Below are positions 929 through 15,451 of a stretch of DNA of 64,000 bases, piece by piece (position 1 is the stretch's first letter; each line of letters opens with the position of its first letter). Position numbers and translations under genes: made by a program. The notes under the pieces were generated by a model, which was not told the origin of the DNA, ran no database searches, and saw only the letters and a program-made list of their open reading frames with translations. The DNA is from Actinomycetales bacterium (GTDB lineage Bacteria; Actinomycetota; Actinomycetes; Actinomycetales; Microbacteriaceae): contig JAATGV010000030.1 of the NCBI GenBank assembly GCA_015654475.1, positions 1-64,000 of the forward strand, given 5' to 3'.

Positions 929-1945
929 TCACAGCAACACCGCCGCCCCCGCGAACGCTCCAGCCTTCAAGTCGGCGAGAGCCCGATCTGCCCGATTCAG
1001 CGGGTACCGAGTGGTCGTCACGCTCAATGGATGTTGCTCCGCGAACCGCAAAAACTCGACACCGTCGGCCCGGGTGTTCGAGGTGACGCTACGTACCTGC
1101 TTCTCGTAGAACAACTCGTTCTGGTAGTTCAGCATCGGCACGTCCGACAAATAAATGCCCGCAATCGACAACACTCCGCCCCGGTCGAGCGCCCGCAACG
1201 CAACCGGAACAAGCTCGCCTACCGGCGCAAACAGCACCGCGGCATCCAGTTTCTCTGGCGGTTCCGCGTAAGCGCCCTGAGCTGAGGCGGCGCCAAGTGC
1301 CAACGCGAGTTCCTGGGATTCCGACTCACGTGTCATCACGTGGATGCGCGCGCCAGCAGCCAGTGCGACCTGCGCCGCGAGGTGGGCTGAGCCGCCGAAC
1401 CCATAAATCCCGAGCCGCCATCCATCAGCTCTGCCAGACGGGAGGCCGGCCCGTTTCAACGCCCGAAATCCGATAATTCCGGCGCACAAAAGCGGTGCCA
1501 ACTGTTCATCGTCATATCCAGCGGGGAGGCGGTAAACAAAATCGGCGGGGGCCACCACAAACTCCGCATAACCGCCGTCCGCATCCCACCCCGTATACAA
1601 CGAGTTCGGGCACAAGTTCTCGTCTCCGCGCAGACAATATGTGCACACCCCACATGTGTGCCGCAACCACGCAACGCCCACTCGATCGCCTGCAGCAAAG
1701 CCAGTTACCCCAGCGCCCCATCCTTCGACAACACCCACCACCTCGTGCCCAGGGGTGACATGGGCATGGTGCACAGGCAGGTCGCCTTCCGTCACGTGCA
1801 GGTCGGTGCGGCACACACCGCACGCCAAAACCCTGATCAGCAATTCTCCGGGGCCAGGATTCGGGATCTCTTTTCCCACCCAACGGAGCGGTCCGGACTC
1901 GATTGGACCTGGACTGTCGACCTGCCATGCATGCATAAGTGCCAT
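929..1945 (-). CDS. Zinc-dependent alcohol dehydrogenase (AdhA-like)
   Basis: A medium-chain zinc alcohol dehydrogenase of 338 residues that would oxidise or reduce alcohols and aldehydes with NAD(P) in the cytosol. The N-terminal GroES-like domain has the catalytic-zinc motif CGVCRTDLH (Cys45) and GHE (His67, Glu68). The structural-zinc loop has Cys98, 101, 104 and 112. A Rossmann domain with YGFGGSAH follows. It resembles the AdhA branch of COG1064 in mycobacteria. I chose the ATG at 1945 over a 38-residue longer reading because the family starts close to the GroES fold and an AGGGAAG-like ribosome site lies about 9 bases upstream. It stands alone between the CRISPR array and an unrelated small gene, so its physiological substrate cannot be read from context. 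Confidence 0.9.
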
Positions 1946-2119
1946 CGTTACCACTTCCCTATCCCGAGTGTATGCCTCTGGCCAGACTGCCAGGAAGGAG
2001 GCCGGGCAGTACCTCGTGTAAGGGAACTGACGGGGAGGCGGATGCAACCCTGCTACCAACCGATTCGAGCACGTAAATGCGTGCGCGGCCAGAGGATAGG
2101 TGCACTAGCAGGCGCCTGC

Positions 2120-2170
2120 CGCGATCCACATCCTGATCCTCACCTGACGCTCACCTGATCCTCACCTGGT
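2120..2170. repeat. Short tandem repeat around CTCACCTGATC
   Basis: The unit CCTGATCCTCACCTG occurs, with small changes, about three times in a row just downstream of the 58-residue membrane protein gene. It contains no open frame. Its role is unknown and it may simply be low-complexity sequence. Confidence 0.5.
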
Positions 2171-2175
2171 TCGAT

Positions 2176-2352
2176 TCACTTCGATTCGCGTTTGCGGCGG
2201 TAGGAGCGATACAGACCGAACGCGACAGCGAATGTCGCCAACGCCAGGCTCAGAAGGGACGCGGCGTTGGCATCGATAACCTCAGCAGCGCGCAGCACAA
2301 GAACGACTCCAAGCAACGCGAGAACGATCACTGGGCTCAACTTCAACAACAC
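2176..2352 (-). CDS. 58-residue two-helix membrane protein
   Basis: A small protein starting at GTG (2352) with a good GAGGAG ribosome site 6-8 bases upstream. It has two hydrophobic stretches, roughly residues 5-20 and 30-47, separated by a short polar turn (RAAEVIDANA), and ends in a very basic tail (YRSYRRKRESK). This predicts a helical hairpin in the cytoplasmic membrane with the basic tail inside. A longer reading from 2571 would run through a strong inverted repeat and has no ribosome site, so I reject it. The family is not recognised. The structured element at 2398-2521 lies in its 5' leader and may control it. Confidence 0.6.
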   Translation of the reverse strand: MLLKLSPVIVLALLGVVLVLRAAEVIDANAASLLSLALATFAVAFGLYRSYRRKRESK

Positions 2353-2397
2353 GAGAACTCCTCTGAGTGGTTGGCGGGCGTGTCTGAGCCTATCGAA

Positions 2398-2521
2398 AAT
2401 GCAGACGCCCCCAATCGGCGGGAGCAACGATCGAGGCGCGGGCCGCTCGCGGCCAATACCTAAGGGAGATCTGCTTGCCTGTGAGCAATCGTTACAGGCA
2501 TCGGGTGGGGGCGTCTGCATT
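2398..2521. repeat. 16-bp perfect inverted repeat enclosing two hairpins
   Basis: The 16-base arms at 2398-2413 and 2506-2521 (AATGCAGACGCCCCCA and its complement) enclose 92 bases. These hold two further hairpins: GGCCG/CGGCC around 2440-2453 and GCCTGT/ACAGGC around 2478-2500. The whole could fold as a Y-shaped, three-stem RNA of about 124 bases. It ends 45 bases before the GTG of the 58-residue membrane protein on the minus strand and lies about 280 bases before nrdD on the plus strand. It could be a 5'-leader RNA, or a non-autonomous mobile element with terminal repeats, although I see no clean target duplication. Confidence 0.6.
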
Positions 2522-2695
2522 ATGTCGAGCGCGCATCGACCGCACACGCTGGCGCACACGCTTGGGCGCACAAGCGGGCTAGCTCATCGTCCCTCCGATG
2601 GCGCCCCGCGCGGCGAAGCTGCGACTCGCGCCCGAATCCGACTAGTCGACACTCGACAAAAGCGAGCTCGCCGAGCTAACTAAAACTGTACGGAC

Positions 2696-2743
2696 ACACT
2701 ACATGTTGTGGTCGTGTCGCAGACCAACCACTAGGTATTGTGG
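2696..2743 (+). promoter_or_regulatory. Pair of NrdR boxes upstream of nrdD
   Basis: Two palindromic 16-mers lie 32 bases apart start to start: ACACTACATGTTGTGG at 2696-2711 and CCACTAGGTATTGTGG at 2728-2743. They match the known NrdR box pattern (ACACWATATATWGTGT-like) and the three-helical-turn spacing that NrdR uses. They sit 56 bases before the nrdD start, so they should mediate dNTP/ATP-dependent repression of the anaerobic reductase operon. Confidence 0.85.
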
Positions 2744-2799
2744 TTACACCAAGTCTTGCTTATGCATCCACTCACCCCTATCACGAGGAGAAACTCGCC

Positions 2800-4728
2800 A
2801 TGTCCGCGACCCCAAACACCCCACAACCAGCAGCAACCCCCCTCAACGTGGACGTTCGCGAGACCATCGGCGAGTACCTCGACCGCAGCGACTGGCGCAT
2901 CAACGCCAACGCAAACCAGGGCTATTCGCTCGGTGGCATGATCCTCAACTCCTCGGGCAAACTGATCGCCAACTACTGGCTCTCAGAGGTTTACCCAGAG
3001 GCCATCGGGGAGGCGCATCGCAATGGGTCGCTGCATATCCACGACCTCGATATGTTCTCGGGATACTGCGCGGGCTGGTCGTTGCGCACCCTTCTGCAAG
3101 AAGGCTTCAACGGCGTGCCAGGTCGCGTCGAGTCGTCAGCGCCCAAGCATTTCTCCAGCGCATGCGGGCAGATCGTCAACTTTCTCGGAACCCTGCAAAA
3201 CGAATGGGCAGGTGCGCAGGCATTCTCGAGCTTCGACACCTATATGGCCCCCTTCGTCCGGCTTGAGAACCTCACCTACGACGACATCTACCAAGATATG
3301 CAGGAGCTCATCTTCAACCTCAACGTGCCTTCACGGTGGGGCACCCAGACACCATTCACCAACCTCACCCTCGACTGGGTATGCCCCGATGACCTCGCAG
3401 ACGAACGCCCGATGATCGGGGGCAAAGTCGTCGATTTCACATACGGCGAACTGCAGTCCGAGATGGACATGATCAACAAGGCATTCATCGACGTGATGAC
3501 GCACGGCGACGATCAGGGCCGTGCCTTCACTTTCCCGATTCCCACCTACAACATCACCAAAGATTTCGACTGGGATGGCCCGAACGTCGACGCGCTCTTC
3601 GGCATGACAGCCAAATATGGGTTGCCCTACTTCCAGAACTTCATCAACTCTGACCTCGATCCGCACATGATTCGCTCCATGTGCTGCCGACTGCAACTCG
3701 ACCTGACAGAACTCTTGAAGAGGGGCAATGGATTGTTCGGGTCGGCTGAACAGACCGGCTCGCTTGGTGTCGTCACCATCAACTGCGCGCGTCTCGGCTA
3801 CGAGCACGCCGGAGACAAGGCGGGTCTGCTCGCCGCGCTCGATGAACTGCTTGAGCTTTCAAAGACCAGCCTTGAACTCAAGCGCGCGGTCATCGGGCAG
3901 CACATCGACCAAGGCCTGTTCCCATACACGAAGCGCTACCTGGGCAACCTCGACAACCACTTCTCGACCATCGGCGTCAATGGCTTGAACGAGATGGTCC
4001 GCAACTTCACAGGCGATCAGAATGACATCAGCAGCCTCGACGGTGAAGCTTTTGCACTGGAAGTGCTTGAGCATGTTCGCGCCCGGATGGTCGAATTCCA
4101 GGGAGCCACCGGCCACATGTACAACTTGGAGGCGACGCCGGCCGAAGGAACGACCTACCGCTTCGCCAAAGAAGATCGCAAGCGTTACCCCGACATCCTG
4201 CAGGCGGGAACGGCCGAAAACCCGTACTACACCAACTCATCACAGCTGCCGGTCGGGTTCACCAACGACCCGTTCGAGGCAATGGAACGCCAAGAGGCGC
4301 TGCAGGCTAAGTACACCGGTGGTACCGTCCTGCACCTCTACATGGGCGAGTCGATGTCGTCGTCCGAGGCGTGCAAAACCTTGGTTCGCCGCTCACTCGA
4401 ACGGTTCCGACTGCCATACATCACCATCACGCCGACGTTCTCGATCTGCCCGTCACATGGTTACATTTCGGGCGAACACCACTTCTGCCCCAGCTGCGAT
4501 GCAAAGCGCGGTACGTCGGCGTCGAGCCCGGCCGAGGATCGTCAGGAGTGCGAAGTATGGACGCGCGTCATGGGCTACTTCCGCCCCATGTCGTCCTTCA
4601 ACATCGGCAAGCAGGGCGAAGCTGCAGAGCGCGTGTATTTTGATGAGCGCGTTGCGCGCGAGGTGATGGATACGGCAACTGCGTCTGGTGCCACAGATCC
4701 TTCTCGCGTTGAGGTAGCCACGGCCTGA
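2800..4728 (+). CDS. nrdD: Anaerobic (class III) ribonucleoside-triphosphate reductase
   Basis: Makes dNTPs from NTPs without oxygen using a glycyl radical installed by NrdG. The 642 residues carry the YCAGWSL active-site cysteine segment (about residue 89), the HIHDLD and GQIVNFLGTLQNEWAGAQAFSSFDTY family blocks in pieces, a Cys pair in SMCCRLQLDL, a zinc site made by CPSHG and CPSC near residues 550-575, and the glycyl-radical region RVMGYF (probable Gly592). The start at 2800 has AGGAG nine bases upstream; a reading from 2740 would run through an NrdR box. Many NrdD proteins begin with an ATP-cone activity-control domain, but here the sequence goes straight into the catalytic part, so overall activity regulation by dATP looks absent. 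nrdG follows 317 bases downstream. Confidence 0.95.
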   Translation: MSATPNTPQPAATPLNVDVRETIGEYLDRSDWRINANANQGYSLGGMILNSSGKLIANYWLSEVYPEAIGEAHRNGSLHIHDLDMFSGYCAGWSLRTLLQEGFNGVPGRVESSAPKHFSSACGQIVNFLGTLQNEWAGAQAFSSFDTYMAPFVRLENLTYDDIYQDMQELIFNLNVPSRWGTQTPFTNLTLDWVCPDDLADERPMIGGKVVDFTYGELQSEMDMINKAFIDVMTHGDDQGRAFTFPIPTYNITKDFDWDGPNVDALFGMTAKYGLPYFQNFINSDLDPHMIRSMCCRLQLDLTELLKRGNGLFGSAEQTGSLGVVTINCARLGYEHAGDKAGLLAALDELLELSKTSLELKRAVIGQHIDQGLFPYTKRYLGNLDNHFSTIGVNGLNEMVRNFTGDQNDISSLDGEAFALEVLEHVRARMVEFQGATGHMYNLEATPAEGTTYRFAKEDRKRYPDILQAGTAENPYYTNSSQLPVGFTNDPFEAMERQEALQAKYTGGTVLHLYMGESMSSSEACKTLVRRSLERFRLPYITITPTFSICPSHGYISGEHHFCPSCDAKRGTSASSPAEDRQECEVWTRVMGYFRPMSSFNIGKQGEAAERVYFDERVAREVMDTATASGATDPSRVEVATA

Positions 4729-4750
4729 GCGCCAGAATGCGCGTGTGAGT

Positions 4751-4806
4751 GCGCGAAATCGTGGGCCACTTGTCGTATGTCGACAAGGATGTCTGCGATT
4801 TCGCGC
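4751..4806 (+). other. Nested hairpin between nrdD and nrdG
   Basis: An 11-bp stem (GCGCGAAATCG at 4751-4761 with its complement at 4796-4806) encloses a 7-bp hairpin (CTTGTCG at 4769-4775 with CGACAAG at 4781-4787). There is no U-run after it. It starts 22 bases after the nrdD stop, so it may be an mRNA 3'-stabilising or processing structure, or a weak terminator that lowers nrdG expression. The rest of the 317-base gap up to nrdG shows no gene. Confidence 0.6.
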
Positions 4807-5045
4807 GCTGCGGCACGATAGTCGTCGATCTTGGCGACCTGAGACGAGTCTTCTTGAGAAAGGCCTGCCCCAGGCATCCACGCGCCTCAAGCGAATCGAA
4901 AGAAAACAAAAGTGACTTTCGCGTACATAAAATATGCGAGATCCAAAAAAGGCCAGCACAGAGTAGCAATACGCCCTATGTGGGCAGGTGCACATCCTGC
5001 CATGTGCGAGACATCTATCGGCCTTGTTAGAGGTAACCAACAAAA

Positions 5046-5879
5046 ATGACTTCATCTGTAAGCGAGAGTACATTCGTGACCATGATCGACGAGGAAACTG
5101 CTCCAATCATTCACCGGCCTCGGTCGCAATCGGCGACAAGCCTGCGCATCGCGGGTCTCACGCCTATGTCCACCGTCGACTGGCCCGGCAAACTCGCCGC
5201 GACCATCTTCCTGCAGGGCTGCTCATGGGACTGCTTCTTCTGTTCGAACACTGAGCTGCAGGACCCACGTGTCTCCGGGGAAATTCCGTGGCGCGACGTT
5301 CTTGATTTTGCACGCAAACGCCGCGGTCTGCTTGACGCGTTTGTATTCTCAGGGGGCGAGCCCACCATGCAGCGGGGTCTGCTTGAGGCCATCGTGGCCA
5401 CGCGCGCGCTCGGCTTCAAAATCGGGTTGCATACCTGTGGGTCTTTTCCGACTCTCTTGAAGCGCGTGCTGCCGTATGTCGATTGGGTTGGTCTTGACGT
5501 GAAGTCGCTTCGACCTGAATACGTTGCCGTCACCGGGCGCGAGAAGAGCGACTCGGCGACATGGCGCAGCCTGGCGCTGGTTCTTGAGGAGTCGAACCGC
5601 CGACAGGATGAGCCGGGTTCTAGGCCGTTCACGTATGAAGTCCGTACAACGGTGCATCCGGGTGTGATGGGCGCCGAATATCTCGCCGAACTTGCCGAAA
5701 GCCTCGCTCACGAAGGAGTCACGACCTACGCGGTGCAAGATTTTCGGCCCGATGGCGTGCGCCAACCAATGCCACGGCGTGGCTTTTTGCACGACGCCGA
5801 TTATGAGGCTGTCGGCTCGGCTGATGTCAGCTTGATCAATCCGCAACTGTTCAAGAGCTTCGTACATCGCGTGCAGTAA
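5046..5879 (+). CDS. nrdG: Anaerobic ribonucleoside-triphosphate reductase activating protein
   Basis: Radical SAM enzyme that reduces S-adenosylmethionine and places the glycyl radical on NrdD. Residues 59-66 hold the cluster motif CSWDCFFC (CX3CX2C; Cys59, 63 and 66). The block FVFSGGEPTMQ follows (GGE, SAM binding), then the LDVKS strand. At 277 residues it is longer than E. coli NrdG (about 150) and belongs to the longer form common outside enterobacteria. The first 40 residues are polar and poorly conserved, so an ATG at 5082 is a possible alternative start. An AGAGG site lies 12 bases before the chosen ATG. Its order behind nrdD supports the assignment. Confidence 0.92.
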   Translation: MTSSVSESTFVTMIDEETAPIIHRPRSQSATSLRIAGLTPMSTVDWPGKLAATIFLQGCSWDCFFCSNTELQDPRVSGEIPWRDVLDFARKRRGLLDAFVFSGGEPTMQRGLLEAIVATRALGFKIGLHTCGSFPTLLKRVLPYVDWVGLDVKSLRPEYVAVTGREKSDSATWRSLALVLEESNRRQDEPGSRPFTYEVRTTVHPGVMGAEYLAELAESLAHEGVTTYAVQDFRPDGVRQPMPRRGFLHDADYEAVGSADVSLINPQLFKSFVHRVQ

Positions 5880-9828: not shown

Positions 9829-9905
9829 CCGTCACTACGACAGGAAAAACTGGGGTCCAGCGCAGATAGAGCAATGGCCCCCAGTTTTTCCTGTCGTAGT
9901 GACGG
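9829..9905. repeat. 27-bp perfect inverted repeat in divergent promoter region
   Basis: Arms at 9829-9855 and 9879-9905 are exact complements with a 23-base loop. They begin CCGTCACTACGACAGG and end AAAAACTGGGG. A smaller hairpin, GGTGGA/TCCACC, lies beside it at 9781-9800. The element is between the leftward ABC operon and the rightward tcyP operon, upstream of both, so an ordinary end-of-operon terminator does not fit. It may insulate the two promoters, attenuate the 5' leader of tcyP (its arm carries a CAGTTTTTCC run) or be a repeat insertion. Confidence 0.65.
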
Positions 9906-10039: not shown

Positions 10040-11473
10040 ATGAATTGGCCCGCATTGGCAACGCTGGTTGCTGTGGCTGTGGTGGCAGTTGGGATCAACG
10101 TCTTGCGCAGGCGGCATGTCAACTTCAGCGTGGTTACGCTTATCGCGCTTGCTGCTGGAATTCCCATCGGTCTGATCGCTCGCACGAACGTCGAATATAT
10201 TGAACCGATTGGCAAGATCTATATCAACATTCTGCTTGCCTGCGTCGCACCTCTCGTATTGGTCTCGGTTATTTCGGCGATAACGTCGCTTGGAAGCATC
10301 GAGAAGCTGCGCAGCATCGGACTGCGATCAGTCTTCTGGCTGCTCCTCAGCAACGCCCTTGCAGTACTTTTGGCTCTTGGGCTCGGCCTCACATTTCAAC
10401 CAGGTGCTGGGGTCCATAGTGAACTCGGCAGCACGTCGACGTCCGTTATCGAAAATTCAGTGCAGGACTTCGGTCAGGTAGTTGTGGGCTTCTTCCCCAC
10501 CAACATCGTTGAAAACTTTCGGGCAAATGACATCATTCCCATCATCTTGGTGGCGGTTGTTCTCTCGGTTTCCTACCTTGTTTTGTCTGCTCGCAAGCCC
10601 GAGGCCGTGAAGCCATTTCGCGATGGCAGCGAAGCACTGAAACTGGTGATTTTCAAAGCCGTCGGCTACGTGATTCGACTCACGCCGTATGCCATCGTGG
10701 CTCTGACAGCTACGACGGTGGGAAACAGCACGAACCTCGGCGGACAATTCTGGTCCCTTGTGGGTCTGCTTGCTCTCACTTGGACTGCCTGCTTCCTTCA
10801 CACCTTCGTGCTCAATGGTGTGTTGCTTCGCACGTTTGCGGATGTGTCGCCGGCGAAGTTCTTCCGCAAAATATTTCCTGCTCAGGTCACCGCCTTCACC
10901 ACACAGAGCAGTGTAGGCACGTTGCCCATAACAACAACCCAACTCACACGCAAGGTGGGGGTGCACCCTGAGATCGCCCATTTCGCGGCCCCGCTTGGCA
11001 CCACCATAGGGATGCCGGGATGCTCAGGGATTTGGCCGATCTTGGTAGCGGTGTGGGGCATAAATGCATATGACATTCATTACACCTTCGGTGCATACGT
11101 GGTGCTTGCCATTCTGGGAATTGTTGTCTCGATCGGGACTGCGGGAGTTCCCGGCACAGCGACCGTTGCGGCGGCGACCGTGTTTGCTGCGGCAGGGCTT
11201 CCTCTTGAATTCGTCGCTGTAACACTGCCCATCAGCACCATCGCCGACATGGCTCGAACGATGACGAATGTGACGGCTGCTGCGGTGAGCGCCACCGTTG
11301 TGGCACGACAAACCCGCCTACTCGACGACGAGATTTTTGAAGGACGCGCGGAGTTTGTGGAAGAGGACGAGGCGGTGTCCGCGAGCGTCGCGCCAGAGGG
11401 TGGGGCTAGCACCGGAGTCGGCCAGACCACCTCTGCGCCTGTTGATAGCAAAGATTTGGAGAATGTACGATGA
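10040..11473 (+). CDS. tcyP: TcyP-like L-cystine:cation symporter
   Basis: A dicarboxylate/amino acid:cation symporter (DAACS) of 477 residues in the cytoplasmic membrane. The head INVLRRRHVNFS followed by GIPIGLI and the segment PLVLVSVISAITSL match the TcyP/YhcL cystine branch better than the glutamate or C4-dicarboxylate branches. The later re-entrant loop blocks TTQSSVGTLPITTTQ and GMPGCSGIWP are the substrate and cation site. A full AAGGAGGA site seven bases before the ATG fixes the start. The C-terminal 55 residues are acidic and low-complexity. Its TGA overlaps the ATG of the next gene, so cystine uptake and the two exported proteins downstream are coupled. Confidence 0.88.
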   Translation: MNWPALATLVAVAVVAVGINVLRRRHVNFSVVTLIALAAGIPIGLIARTNVEYIEPIGKIYINILLACVAPLVLVSVISAITSLGSIEKLRSIGLRSVFWLLLSNALAVLLALGLGLTFQPGAGVHSELGSTSTSVIENSVQDFGQVVVGFFPTNIVENFRANDIIPIILVAVVLSVSYLVLSARKPEAVKPFRDGSEALKLVIFKAVGYVIRLTPYAIVALTATTVGNSTNLGGQFWSLVGLLALTWTACFLHTFVLNGVLLRTFADVSPAKFFRKIFPAQVTAFTTQSSVGTLPITTTQLTRKVGVHPEIAHFAAPLGTTIGMPGCSGIWPILVAVWGINAYDIHYTFGAYVVLAILGIVVSIGTAGVPGTATVAAATVFAAAGLPLEFVAVTLPISTIADMARTMTNVTAAAVSATVVARQTRLLDDEIFEGRAEFVEEDEAVSASVAPEGGASTGVGQTTSAPVDSKDLENVR

Positions 11474-12441
11474 AGCGCCTTGCCCCTGTCCTATTCGTCG
11501 GCACCGCGACCTTGGTCGTCACCATGTCGTGGGCGTACCCAGCTCAAGCCACTGAGGTGACCAACCCCGCCGACAACCCGGCACCGGTCACTGTCGTCGT
11601 TGATGGCCAGACCTACCACGACGGCCTTGACACTCTGCCAGGATTCGACGACGAGGCCTGCACGGCGATCCCGGGCGTCACCTACGACTATGCGAACAAC
11701 GAGATCGAGTATTCAGATGGCCAGGTTGTCACGTGGACTGAATGGAATCGTATTGCGGGTTACAAGGCGTGGCTCTCCAGCCAGGGGGGTTCTAGCTCTG
11801 GATCCTCAGGTAATGGGTCAGGCAGCGGCTCCGGCTCATCGAACGGTAGTTCAAGCGGCGGATCGAGTGGATCAAGTGGGTCGAACGGCTCTGGCGGTTC
11901 GAAGAGTTCGAGCAACTCGGGAAGTTCGAAGGGCTCGAAGGGCTCAGGCAGCAAGTCGATCAGTTCTAAAAGCTCGAAGGGTTCCACTGGCTCAAGCAAT
12001 TCCAGTGGTTCGAAGAGCAGCGGCAAGAGTTTGAGCAACTCGAAGAGCACAACGTCGAGTTCTGCGGCTACGTCGCCGTCTGCCGGCATCGGCTCAGGCC
12101 TGGATGCCTCGATGACGATTGATCCGAGCTCGGCAGCTTCTTCGCCTGCGGGCGCTCCAGCCAGTGCGTCGGCGAGTGCTCCCGGCGGTGCTTCCGCGTC
12201 CGATCCGGCGACCGCCACAGGCACAACGCAATACGTCCCGGCCGAGGCTCCGTCGGGTGAGATCAATGCTGTCGCCGCAGGTTCCGAGACCGATATCGGC
12301 GTTGGCGCAGGCAGCAGCAGTACGACGGCGGCGGGCATCGCCATTCTTTCAGCGCTCGTGATCGGTGGACTGGCACTGCTCGGGTGGCAACAGCTGCGTC
12401 AGCGACTCGTGGCCTCGCACATCATCAGGAGAAAAAAATGA
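11470..12441 (+). CDS. Serine-rich exported membrane-anchored protein, single Cys
   Basis: Unknown family. The 323 residues begin with a signal peptide (to about residue 27, ...YPAQATEV). A folded segment of about 75 residues follows, with VTVVVDGQTYHDG and a lone cysteine in DDEACTAIPG. A stretch of some 170 residues is almost only Ser, Gly, Lys, Asn and Thr, and acts as a flexible wall-spanning stalk. A C-terminal transmembrane helix (about 293-310) and a basic stop-transfer tail RQRLVASHIIRRKK complete it. The topology is outside-facing and anchored at the C terminus, without LPXTG. ATGA overlap with tcyP implies coupled synthesis. I infer an accessory role in extracellular disulfide or cystine handling. 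The stalk is simple repeat DNA, so its length may vary between strains. Confidence 0.8.
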   Translation: MKRLAPVLFVGTATLVVTMSWAYPAQATEVTNPADNPAPVTVVVDGQTYHDGLDTLPGFDDEACTAIPGVTYDYANNEIEYSDGQVVTWTEWNRIAGYKAWLSSQGGSSSGSSGNGSGSGSGSSNGSSSGGSSGSSGSNGSGGSKSSSNSGSSKGSKGSGSKSISSKSSKGSTGSSNSSGSKSSGKSLSNSKSTTSSSAATSPSAGIGSGLDASMTIDPSSAASSPAGAPASASASAPGGASASDPATATGTTQYVPAEAPSGEINAVAAGSETDIGVGAGSSSTTAAGIAILSALVIGGLALLGWQQLRQRLVASHIIRRKK

Positions 12442-12560
12442 GCGTCGCACCGCGTGGCCTGGAGCTGCGTCGGGCTCGACGTACTTCGAACAATTACGCA
12501 TTGAGGAGCCCCCGTGGCAACCGCTACGGCCGGATGCCCAGCGGCCGAATGTGCATCTAA
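12438..12560 (+). CDS. Possible 40-residue basic peptide overlapping the preceding stop
   Basis: An ATG overlaps the TGA of the serine-rich protein (ATGA), preceded by AGGAGAAAAAA, and opens a frame of 40 codons to TAA. The peptide is rich in arginine (LRRARRTSNNY, RGNRYGRMPSGR) and has no membrane segment. The same ATGA coupling occurs at the previous gene junction, which favours translation, but the product resembles nothing I know and may be chance. A run of nine C at 12565-12573 follows it. Confidence 0.3.
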   Translation: MSVAPRGLELRRARRTSNNYALRSPRGNRYGRMPSGRMCI

Positions 12561-12608
12561 TCCACCCCCCCCCGCAGCACCAAGACACCCCCACTTGAAA
12601 GGAATACC

Positions 12609-15371
12609 ATGGCTCATCATGCCCAATTTTGGCGTGCGGTCTCTGCGCTGACGGTCACTGCCCTCAGCGCGACTGCCTTAGCCGCCGGCCCTGCAGCAAA
12701 TGCCGCGCCGATACGCAGTTCATCGACAGCGACAGACACCACCTACCTAGCGGACACGCTTGGACTACCCACCAACACCGTTGTGGAAACTCTCACGTAC
12801 GACCGCTTTCAGTGGCTGCTTGAGCAGCCAGGAGACTTTGCCATTCTGATTGGGGATCCGGCCGAGGGTACGAACTTCAGTGCTCAGGCACAGGCCGTTG
12901 ATACCGCAGCCCGTGCGGCCGGCGTCGGCACCGTGTACTGGTTCGACCCCAACCTCTCGGGCAGTGTGAAAGTGGGAAACTACACTGAGCCAAACCTGGA
13001 CATTCGTAATCCCGCTGGCATCACATCCATCGATGCGAGCGCGAGCGCTATCTATGGGAAGGCCTGGACAAGCCTGATCGGACAGCACCTCGGCAACGGG
13101 CTCAAAGCCACTGTTTCGGGGGCGAACTCCGAGTCGGCCACGGTCGCCATTGCCTCTGATCCTTCGGTGATAAATGATTTTGCCGACCCGTTGTACGACT
13201 ACTCGGCGGGCACCCCGGCCAACGCGACGGATAGTGTCTTCTTCGTCTACAACAAAGACAACACCACCGGATCGCCGATTCGAGCTGACAAGATCGTCGA
13301 TGGCATCGATCTCGACACCATCGCGCCGCAGGCATACACGAGCGAGGCCGCGAATGTGCTCGCTACGGTTGGCGGCACAAATATCGACGAAGTCAGCGAA
13401 TTCGAGTTCTGGAAATCAGAGATCAACGCCAAGCACGCTGCGCAGGCAAGTGCAGGCCCCGTTGTCGCCGGCGAATCGATCCTCGATGATGCAGACAATG
13501 CCGATCCGTGGGCGATAACGCAGCTCACCTATCCAGAGCTGGTGCATCTGCTCGCGTTGAAAGACACGACGAACAATCCAAACTTTGTCGTGTTCTTCGG
13601 CGGAACATGGTGCCCCAATACCCGTGCGGTGATCAAGGACGTCAACGCGCAGGCGCAAGCGAACAACACCACTGTCTACAACTTCGATACCGTGCTCGAT
13701 GGTGGCACAGTCGGTGGTGCCACGACCAGCGGCACCAACCCCATCCAGGTGCGCAACAATGCGAACAACGGGTCGGTGAAGAACTTCTCTCCGTCCTTCT
13801 TATACGGCGATCTCGTTCGCACGTATCTTAAAAACCTCGTAACCCAGTACGAGCCGAACACGGGTACGCGTGTCCTGTACTATCCGGGCGGCGATTACAC
13901 TGCTACCGCAGATGTGGTTCGCAAGCTCCAAGTCCCATTCTTGATCAACTATCAGCGTGGCACGGGCAGCAACCCATCGAGCACCTCGGTGAAGCGTCAG
14001 TGGATTCAGCAGAATACTGACTCGTCGACCGGGTTGCCGACCTTCACGGAATACATGTCACAGTTCTGGTACACGCATCCGGAGGCTGGCAGAATCGGGC
14101 TGACCGCCGCCAAGTTCCCGTTGGCGCTGACCATTCCAGGCTTGGCCGGCTTCGACTGGAAGTCGCCGACGTACCCTAATGCGTCTGTGCATACGGATGA
14201 TTCTGCCTACTTGGATCCAGCGGCAACGGACGCAACCACCACGCCGGCTGCGCTGGCTGCGGCGCTTGCTGCAATTCCGAGCAACGTGCCACATTCCACT
14301 GCTGAAGAGGTGACCGCATCGCTGGCTGCGGCGCAGGCATCCGTGCCCGTCAATGAAACGCTTGTCAGCAACCTCACGATCGTCAAGGACGACTGGGCCC
14401 TTGTCCAAACTCGCAAGGGCTCGGTTTCGGATGCGCTCGCCAACGTTGCTTTCGGCCTTGAAGCTGTTGCAAAGCTCGATACGTTCTTCGGTGGGCTTCC
14501 CGGCGCGGTGACATCTACTCAGACCGTCAGCGCACCTTCGGTTGCCTACGGTGTGGCTCCGTCGGTGACGGTCGCCATCGAGAACGCGTATGGAAGGGTC
14601 CCATCGGGCACGGTTACGCTAACGGTCGGTGGTGCCACCTACACGCAGCAGGTCTCGGCCAACGCTGCGTCGTTCAAGCTGCCGAAGCTTGCGGCGGGGT
14701 CATATGGCTACACGCTCAGCTACCCCGGCGACTCTCAGCTCTTGGCCTTCACTAAGACTGGGTCGTTGGTTGTCACCAAGGCAACGGTGAGCAAGGTTGC
14801 GACAGCATTCGCGAAGCGTCCGACAAGCACCGCGGCCGGTACGGCCAAGGTAACGGTCACGACTCCTACCGGCCTCGCGAAAGCCACGGGCAAGGTCACT
14901 GTGACACTTGCAAAGGGTTCGACGAAAACCAAGGTCACCGGCACGTTCTCTGGCGGATCGGCTACGATCTCGGTGCCGAAGCTGGCTGCCGGAACTTGGA
15001 GCGTTGCAACGGCATGGCCGGGCGACACAAATTACAAGGCCGTATCCACGACAAGCACTCTCACTGTGGCCAAGGCAAAGGCCACCAAAGTGGTCGGCAC
15101 CGTGTCCAAAAAGCCGACAAGCAAGAAAGCCGGTGCGTACAAGGTCACGGTCGCTACTCCCGCAGGCTTGGCAAAGGCGACGGGCAAGGTAACCGTCACG
15201 TTGAAGAAGGGCTCCTCCACCAAGACCATACGTGGATCGCTTTCCAAAGGCGTGGTGAAGATCACCGTGCCGAAGCTGGCCAAGGGCACGTGGAGAATCG
15301 TGGTCGCATGGCCGGGCGACGCAAACTATCTCGCCGCTTCAACGACGGGAACCGTCAAGGTCACCAAGTGA
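12609..15371 (+). CDS. Secreted protein with two thioredoxin-like and three Ig-like domains
   Basis: A 920-residue exported protein with AAAG of the ribosome site close to the ATG. The signal peptide ends near ANAAPIRSS (about 33-35). Two sequence-related thioredoxin-like segments follow. The first starts LTYDRFQWLLEQ (about 61) and lacks a redox motif (GDPAEGTNF). The second starts LTYPELVHLLAL (about 306) and has GGTWCPNTR, giving one cysteine where thioredoxin has CXXC. That Cys appears to be the only one in the protein. After about residue 640, three Ig-like (Big_3_5-type) repeats of about 95 residues follow, each ending like AGTWSVATAWPGDTNY, and become rich in Lys and Thr. There is no C-terminal anchor. 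Last gene of the tcyP operon; a hairpin terminator lies 50 bases on. It probably binds thiols or disulfides at the cell surface. Confidence 0.8.
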   Translation: MAHHAQFWRAVSALTVTALSATALAAGPAANAAPIRSSSTATDTTYLADTLGLPTNTVVETLTYDRFQWLLEQPGDFAILIGDPAEGTNFSAQAQAVDTAARAAGVGTVYWFDPNLSGSVKVGNYTEPNLDIRNPAGITSIDASASAIYGKAWTSLIGQHLGNGLKATVSGANSESATVAIASDPSVINDFADPLYDYSAGTPANATDSVFFVYNKDNTTGSPIRADKIVDGIDLDTIAPQAYTSEAANVLATVGGTNIDEVSEFEFWKSEINAKHAAQASAGPVVAGESILDDADNADPWAITQLTYPELVHLLALKDTTNNPNFVVFFGGTWCPNTRAVIKDVNAQAQANNTTVYNFDTVLDGGTVGGATTSGTNPIQVRNNANNGSVKNFSPSFLYGDLVRTYLKNLVTQYEPNTGTRVLYYPGGDYTATADVVRKLQVPFLINYQRGTGSNPSSTSVKRQWIQQNTDSSTGLPTFTEYMSQFWYTHPEAGRIGLTAAKFPLALTIPGLAGFDWKSPTYPNASVHTDDSAYLDPAATDATTTPAALAAALAAIPSNVPHSTAEEVTASLAAAQASVPVNETLVSNLTIVKDDWALVQTRKGSVSDALANVAFGLEAVAKLDTFFGGLPGAVTSTQTVSAPSVAYGVAPSVTVAIENAYGRVPSGTVTLTVGGATYTQQVSANAASFKLPKLAAGSYGYTLSYPGDSQLLAFTKTGSLVVTKATVSKVATAFAKRPTSTAAGTAKVTVTTPTGLAKATGKVTVTLAKGSTKTKVTGTFSGGSATISVPKLAAGTWSVATAWPGDTNYKAVSTTSTLTVAKAKATKVVGTVSKKPTSKKAGAYKVTVATPAGLAKATGKVTVTLKKGSSTKTIRGSLSKGVVKITVPKLAKGTWRIVVAWPGDANYLAASTTGTVKVTK

Positions 15372-15420
15372 GTCACCACTCGGTCCCGCGTTACGCGACT
15401 GGGTCTGAGTAAAGTGCGTG

Positions 15421-15450
15421 GGGCGTCGCTCATCAACGTGGGCGACGCCC
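15421..15450 (+). terminator. Hairpin terminator of the tcyP operon
   Basis: GGGCGTCGC at 15421-15429 pairs with GCGACGCCC at 15442-15450 around a 12-base loop, followed by TTCAGCTT. It lies 50 bases after the plus-strand stop and directly before the end of the convergent ABC permease gene, so it could serve both strands. Confidence 0.75.
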
Positions 15451-15451
15451 T

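Follow-up and report, generated by a model that had tools for sequence, protein, structure and literature searches.

Background

SLC1-type symporters are, to our knowledge, regarded as self-contained. Among exported proteins with the thioredoxin (Trx) fold, the pneumococcal Etrx proteins carry a CXXC motif, while in Trx-fold proteins of the TMX5/ERp44 type the resolving cysteine is replaced, which suits them to holding mixed disulfides. Here we describe a block of three plus-strand genes at positions 10040-15371 of a 64,000-nucleotide stretch from an Actinomycetales bacterium of the Microbacteriaceae (assembly GCA_015654475.1, contig JAATGV010000030.1, positions 1 to 64,000), hereafter the window. 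It encodes a symporter of the SDF (SLC1-type) family, a membrane-anchored exported protein and a secreted Trx-like protein with immunoglobulin (Ig)-like repeats. The three almost certainly form a functional unit, and we see about an even chance that this unit is a dedicated surface thiol-capture module for cysteine, cystine or a close cysteine derivative, feeding the symporter.

The window symporter shares with TcyP/YdjN of E. coli (TcyP, b1729) the SDF family, a cysteine in transmembrane helix 7 (TM7; QNGCAGLYP in TcyP, MPGCSGIWP in the window) and equivalents of D394, R397 and N401, and among three E. coli SDF proteins TcyP gives the best BLASTP score (TcyP 138 bits, 30% identity; GltP 130 bits, 27%; DctA 100 bits). 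E. coli without YdjN (TcyP) and YecS fails to grow when cystine is its only sulfur source (PMC4383340). It differs in having QSS for RSS in helical hairpin 1 (HP1) and MPG for QNG, in falling into a separate group in a quick tree, and in being accompanied by two exported thiol proteins. Given the small lead over GltP and its separate group, the name TcyP used in a preliminary description of this locus was too specific. The pneumococcal Etrx1/Etrx2-CcdA system, in the available part of PMC3914529, also has exported Trx-fold proteins at a Gram-positive surface, and some Clostridial relatives of our family lie near DsbD_TM genes; unlike Etrx, the present protein has two Trx-like domains and a CPNT or CHNT site, and its partner is a symporter rather than a methionine sulfoxide reductase. 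The TMX5/ERp44-type trapping proteins of the protein disulfide isomerase family serve eukaryotic quality control and have no transporter in the available part of PMC11443168; the likeness is one of mechanism only.

Among the literature matches listed, with most subscription journals outside the scope, no title or abstract opening couples a TcyP/SDF symporter to an exported thioredoxin, and the module is without a published description among these listings. In the present case an SLC1-type clade is accompanied by two exported thiol proteins, and one of these belongs to a large family that has no Pfam name over its Trx part. If uptake needs the exported proteins, extracellular thiol chemistry would become a step of nutrient transport, and cysteine acquisition in Gram-positive bacteria would gain a route.

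Results and discussion

A conserved three-gene unit

The window genome measures 2.4 Mb and is 98.3% complete. Its open reading frame (ORF) list has the three genes as previously read: the symporter (10040-11473, 477 residues), the anchored protein (11470-12441, 323 residues) and the secreted Trx/Ig protein (12609-15371, 920 residues). By eye, AAGGAGG stands immediately 5' of the symporter ATG. The symporter stop overlaps the anchored-gene start in ATGA at 11470-11473, and 167 bases separate the anchored gene from the Trx/Ig gene. The four-nucleotide overlap is found again in 22 of 46 loci, a count biased toward overlaps since the start nearest the upstream stop was chosen among possible starts. 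Of the single terminator claimed for the block, a 14-pair hairpin 3' of the Trx/Ig gene (15420-15451; z -2.94 for the folded 99-nucleotide stretch) stands, but no U run follows it on the plus strand and it is absent from the pattern-scan list.

A search for the Trx protein with residues 1-640 of the 920-residue protein gave matches in 6 of 394 genomes of the class. The same six and no others carry the symporter clade, at 703-748 bits against 264 for the next-best SDF protein, in a search with alignment A8 of operon symporters (2 of its 19 rows stem from these six genomes). Because the sample includes related species, the six genomes represent fewer than six independent events. Among 199 genomes of the family, the window's own was the sole match. 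When named genomes were scanned at whole-protein level, the window sequence alone returned no match; alignment A1 yielded 63 loci, including Microbacteriaceae, Nocardioidaceae, Cellulomonadaceae, Thermoleophilia, one Bifidobacterium and Clostridia (loci bear L numbers and genomes G numbers below).

For 51 of the 69 Trx genes or pieces of such genes, an SDF gene lies on the same strand no more than 4 kb upstream, a count that excludes the duplicate loci L032, L034, L036 and L048, takes the frameshifted L065 as two pieces, counts L096 twice and includes L044 with just 3.5 kb upstream. Nine have no such gene in at least 4 kb of sequence (the second copy at L052, L087, L089, L092, L093, L094, L095, L098 and L099, with L092 and L093 being fragments), and another nine are too near a contig end to judge. 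The anchored gene sits between the other two in 46 of 48 cases, the remaining two (L046, L060) being near contig ends; L048, L128 and L033 are omitted here, although L033 by eye has all three genes in order. The three-part system put forward in the preliminary description is thus borne out by the co-occurrence of its parts, and exported genes of the operon type do not regularly occur away from the symporter, which would have spoken against it.

By sequence, the anchored proteins form four subfamilies: T1 (the window type), T2, T3 and T4. Bifidobacterium jacchi (L128) has the genes in the order anchored-Trx-symporter, with an anchored protein that matches T2 at 2.5e-9. A genome of Clostridiales Family XIII (L129) probably keeps the set, as the Trx and symporter genes are followed there by one for a 232-residue exported protein that ends in a transmembrane stretch and has one Cys behind its signal stretch.

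The secreted thioredoxin-like protein

Each exported window protein has exactly one cysteine, as previously counted by eye: C64 in the anchored protein and C335 (codon 13611-13613), within GGTWCPNT, in the Trx/Ig protein. An AlphaFold model of the latter from 63 aligned rows has a mean predicted local distance difference test (pLDDT) score of 81.8 and a predicted template modelling score of 0.82. Domain 1 (12735-13391), which is without Cys in the window copy, matches the Trx fold in VIA-align (Z 8.6, root-mean-square deviation 2.9, 112 residues aligned), a comparison that covers the families on its list; Foldseek with the two-domain model gave nothing at E <0.001. Domain 2 (13479-14069) is drawn from the secondary structure of the model, a weak profile alignment to thioredoxins and alignment A4, and shows in the model the strand-WC-helix order of the thioredoxin site. 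Three Big_3_5 Ig-like repeats, matched by Pfam in three stretches, occupy 14523-15371.

All 63 rows of alignment A3 share the W and C of the site. The patterns of the A1 scan favoured rows with a WC site, and three proteins reached by other routes (the second copy at L052, L128 and L129) retain WC. From the core onward, each of the 50 intact operon rows shows a single Cys, omitting both L065 pieces and the second L052 copy (L048 duplicates L047). In almost every row Thr takes the place of the second Cys of CXXC, with CPNT in the window and CHNT and similar in relatives; the site is therefore CxxT, and the window protein with its single Cys lacks the CXXC of dithiol thioredoxins. Ahead of a later strand of domain 2, T1 and T2 rows have VP, presumably the counterpart of the cis-proline loop of thioredoxins, and T3 and T4 rows have VG. 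Domain 2 looks like a thioredoxin with the attacking Cys but with Thr for the resolving Cys.

The family also includes divergent members. Leucobacter weissii (L052) has a second, divergent Trx copy near the operon but on the opposite strand (1495-5232, minus strand), with GNAWCPNA and two Cys. L087, L089 and L090 are relatives of more than 1,200 residues with GGTWCPYT and an additional Cys in GGCG; L087 and L089 have no symporter nearby, and L090 is cut short at a contig end.

The membrane-anchored partner

The window's anchored protein has a signal-like N-terminus, a Ser/Gly-rich middle and a C-terminal hydrophobic stretch. C64 lies in an N-terminal domain of 85 residues (11554-11808), for which the 14-row alignments A5 and A6 have invariant DD..CT.IP and WTEW.R and the structural model is of low confidence (mean pLDDT 61.9). 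With the membrane stretch set by hydropathy, the exoplasmic cysteines number one in 15 of 15 T1 rows, three in 18 T2 rows and five in one (L128), and three in all 12 T3 and all 4 T4 rows. All 50 parsed rows, the frameshifted L065 included, thus have an odd count; L068 is unparsed and has three by eye. Conservation of the lone cysteines therefore holds for the Trx protein throughout the intact operon copies, but in the anchored protein the Cys is lone only in T1. With odd numbers, one Cys would be left unpaired if the others pair, and the counts are suggestive, and only that, of an unpaired Cys in the anchored partner. A one-Cys protein paired with odd-Cys partners allows a direct and cheap test.

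The same cysteines could serve a structural tether, in which a permanent disulfide between them fixes the Trx/Ig protein beside the symporter as a substrate-binding or wall-spanning scaffold, with no redox cycling. In favour of this are the single Cys of the secreted protein and the odd number in its partner, together with the long Ser or Pro/Thr linkers and the Ig repeats, which would suit the spanning of a wall. However, the Cys of the Trx protein occupies the position of the attacking Cys of thioredoxins, after a strand and at a helix start; the Trx proteins of L033, L128 and L129 by eye have an apparent C-terminal anchor of their own and still keep the single Cys; and the Clostridial lipoproteins described below need no tether, yet mostly retain it. 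We consider a tether unlikely. Thiol shuttling by the two exported proteins and a mixed disulfide between them, as put forward in the preliminary description, stay at the level of inference.

The symporter

Pfam PF00375 (SDF) matches the window symporter at 8.2e-95 over residues 31-423 of 477, the whole SDF (SLC1-type) fold, and its own genome holds no further match to it at E 1e-3. TM7 carries GMPGC in 47 of 47 actinobacterial operon symporters. TM8 of the window protein includes DMARTMTNVTAAA, and its DMART, part of DMARTMTN in the window, is retained in 28 of 47 operon rows; the substrate-site residues equivalent to D394, R397 and N401 are thereby kept in the window, as in TcyP. The NMD motif and D405 that mark Na+-coupled SDF proteins in the available part of PMC12668577 are replaced in the window by GMPG and an A at the D405 place. 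The best solved relative is 9BGY, the reconstructed ancestor AncInt of the same paper. In the quick tree the operon symporters form a group apart from E. coli TcyP, and two Clostridial symporters (L096, L097) cluster with TcyP; the tree is provisional, with long branches, and its reference rows REL_L017, L018, L024 and L031, placed on a very long branch, are possibly misread. Judging from the neighbouring genes, the substrate of the module is probably of cysteine type.

A lone Cys in a short motif ends many symporter tails (VPVGACSI, IPIGQCELP or terminal VGACKIEF, e.g., L035, L064, L129). It is present in 11 of 11 T3, 4 of 4 T4 and 14 of 19 T2 symporters and in L128 and L129, and in none of the 12 readable T1 tails.

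Sulfur-related neighbours and Clostridial relatives

A desulfurase of the SufS family flanks the operon at 13 distinct loci (15 rows with two duplicate pairs; 78 sources). It is upstream on the same strand at L038 and L043, upstream and divergent at L035, L041 and L071, downstream at L040, L045, L046, L047, L049, L082 and L088, and further down on the other strand at L068. The L035 gene, the one searched against Pfam and NCBIfam, matches TIGR01979 at 8e-79 and 265 bits, but falls below the family cut-off of 475 bits, which sets it off from known SufS-family desulfurases, as does its place next to this operon. All 15 rows retain SGHK, with the pyridoxal-phosphate-binding Lys, and 14 have RDGxFCAHPL, the pattern match in L088 falling on another stretch. 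The window genome has no match to phosphoadenosine phosphosulfate (PAPS) reductase (PF01507), which is present in 14 of 14 control genomes. It has two DsbD_TM genes, of which one, CcdA-type, is at the end of the window's contig (G000:C22:63846-64430) and is a possible electron source.

Most of the Clostridial Trx relatives are lipoproteins that carry a second Cys (CVPN and similar). At L097 such a protein adjoins a TcyP-type SDF gene (40% identity and 244 bits to E. coli TcyP), and L096 is also beside one. A CyuA-type desulfidase gene is near L094 (38%, 246 bits to E. coli CyuA) and another (SDH_alpha) near L130, with a similar gene by eye at L095 and L099; DsbD_TM and thioredoxin genes are near L095 and L134. 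G589, G590 and G593, whose lipoprotein loci have no adjacent SDF gene, encode an SDF protein 40-43% identical to that of L097 at another place in the genome; in G594 and G595 it was the operon symporter that matched. In a sample of the class of L097, 2 of 291 genomes have the Trx family, one being G592 itself. Cys is the final residue in 12 Clostridial rows, although the start row of L098 is probably the end of the L095 copy. Lipoproteins ending in this way (e.g., ..GGC) were seen at L094, L095, L097, L098, L099, L130, L131, L133, L134, L135 and L136, with several copies per genome.

Together, the SufS-type desulfurase and the Clostridial neighbours of TcyP, CyuA and CcdA type point to cysteine or cystine, in keeping with the thiol and cystine link first suggested for the locus. 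Surface thiol proteins and CcdA-type neighbours might instead belong to oxidative defence, with the symporter in a cysteine/cystine redox cycle, the surface proteins keeping exported proteins or the wall reduced, and nutrition secondary. E. coli has a cysteine/cystine shuttle via YdeD and FliY-YecSC (the available part of PMC4383340), pneumococcus has surface thioredoxins with CcdA-Etrx pathways (PMC3914529, likewise in part), and DsbD_TM genes occur near Clostridial copies and twice in the window genome. Against this, the desulfurase is the sole profile-confirmed non-operon neighbour in at least three subfamilies; other recurring neighbours (each at no more than 7 of 47 loci) fall outside the annotation and may include a redox gene. 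We regard defence as a decidedly improbable main role.

Weighing cysteine capture

Several observations weigh against a cysteine-capture module. The profile alignment of domain 2 to thioredoxins by hhalign places WCPNT over WCGPC of E. coli TrxA at E 5.3e-4 with a probability of just 30.5, and Pfam thioredoxin matched, weakly, 1 of 63 members. The presumed cis-Pro position is G in T3 and T4 rows, and the site is not kept by every relative (L132 shows SLSCPNTR, and the motif is missing from the fragment L093). The odd Cys counts come from a small number of lineages and do not amount to 50 separate events. The 232-residue protein of L129 matches none of the anchored subfamilies in sequence, so that its role as partner is read only from its build and place. 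No copy of the desulfurase lies in the window, a 38% match being on another contig of its genome, and L068 is the only T2 locus with one. Of 41 genomes with the operon, 36 have PAPS reductase; the module therefore does not stand in for sulfate assimilation, a role that we reject in general.

The equivalents of D394 and R397 are lost in 19 of 47 operon symporters, which are all of T2 (19 of 19). In the available part of PMC12668577 these residues are tied to the amino group and side chain of the substrate, so their loss speaks against an ordinary amino-acid substrate in T2, whose symporters may carry a different one. More generally, the symporter could move another amino acid or organic acid, with the thiol proteins serving adhesion or sensing and the genes kept together for regulation only. 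The T2 losses and the separate symporter clade favour this possibility; the pairing of the same Trx family with TcyP-type SDF proteins in Clostridia, and a desulfurase beside the operon at 13 loci, argue against it. We judge it to have little probability.

Proposed mechanism

Under cysteine capture, domain 2 of the secreted protein would take up an outside thiol or disulfide by forming a mixed disulfide at its CxxT site. The anchored partner, through its unpaired Cys, would then resolve this disulfide, or would hold the Trx protein beside the symporter, through which the released cysteine-type amino acid would enter. Inside the cell, the desulfurase encoded next door in some relatives would use the sulfur of the imported amino acid. 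In Clostridia, a single Trx lipoprotein chain could do the job with its own second Cys, joined in many cases by a Cys at the C-terminus, and a CcdA-type protein could supply electrons. Capture by way of a mixed disulfide falls, in our estimate, slightly short of an even chance. The broadest form of the proposal is a new class of partner-dependent secondary transport, in which an extracellular monothiol Trx protein captures cysteine-type disulfides as mixed disulfides and passes them, via an anchored partner with an unpaired Cys, to a symporter of SLC1 fold, and disulfide exchange replaces the classical binding protein; this we hold to be rather doubtful.

Other features of the locus

Searches of nine loci and the window for riboswitch or T-box control gave only tRNAs at the gathering threshold. 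A defence or phage reading was likewise discarded: PADLOC matches none of the three proteins, and the PHROGs matches are solely of unknown function. A small ORF at 12438-12560, of 40 residues and ending in MCI, overlaps the anchored-gene stop; it was rejected as a part of the set, having no counterpart at that place in the 14 other T1 rows. Between the divergent ATP-binding cassette (ABC) gene and the symporter, 9829-9905 forms an inverted repeat with no second copy within the window; its 31-nucleotide arms are 97% complementary and are separated by a 15-nucleotide spacer, with an internal A/T run.

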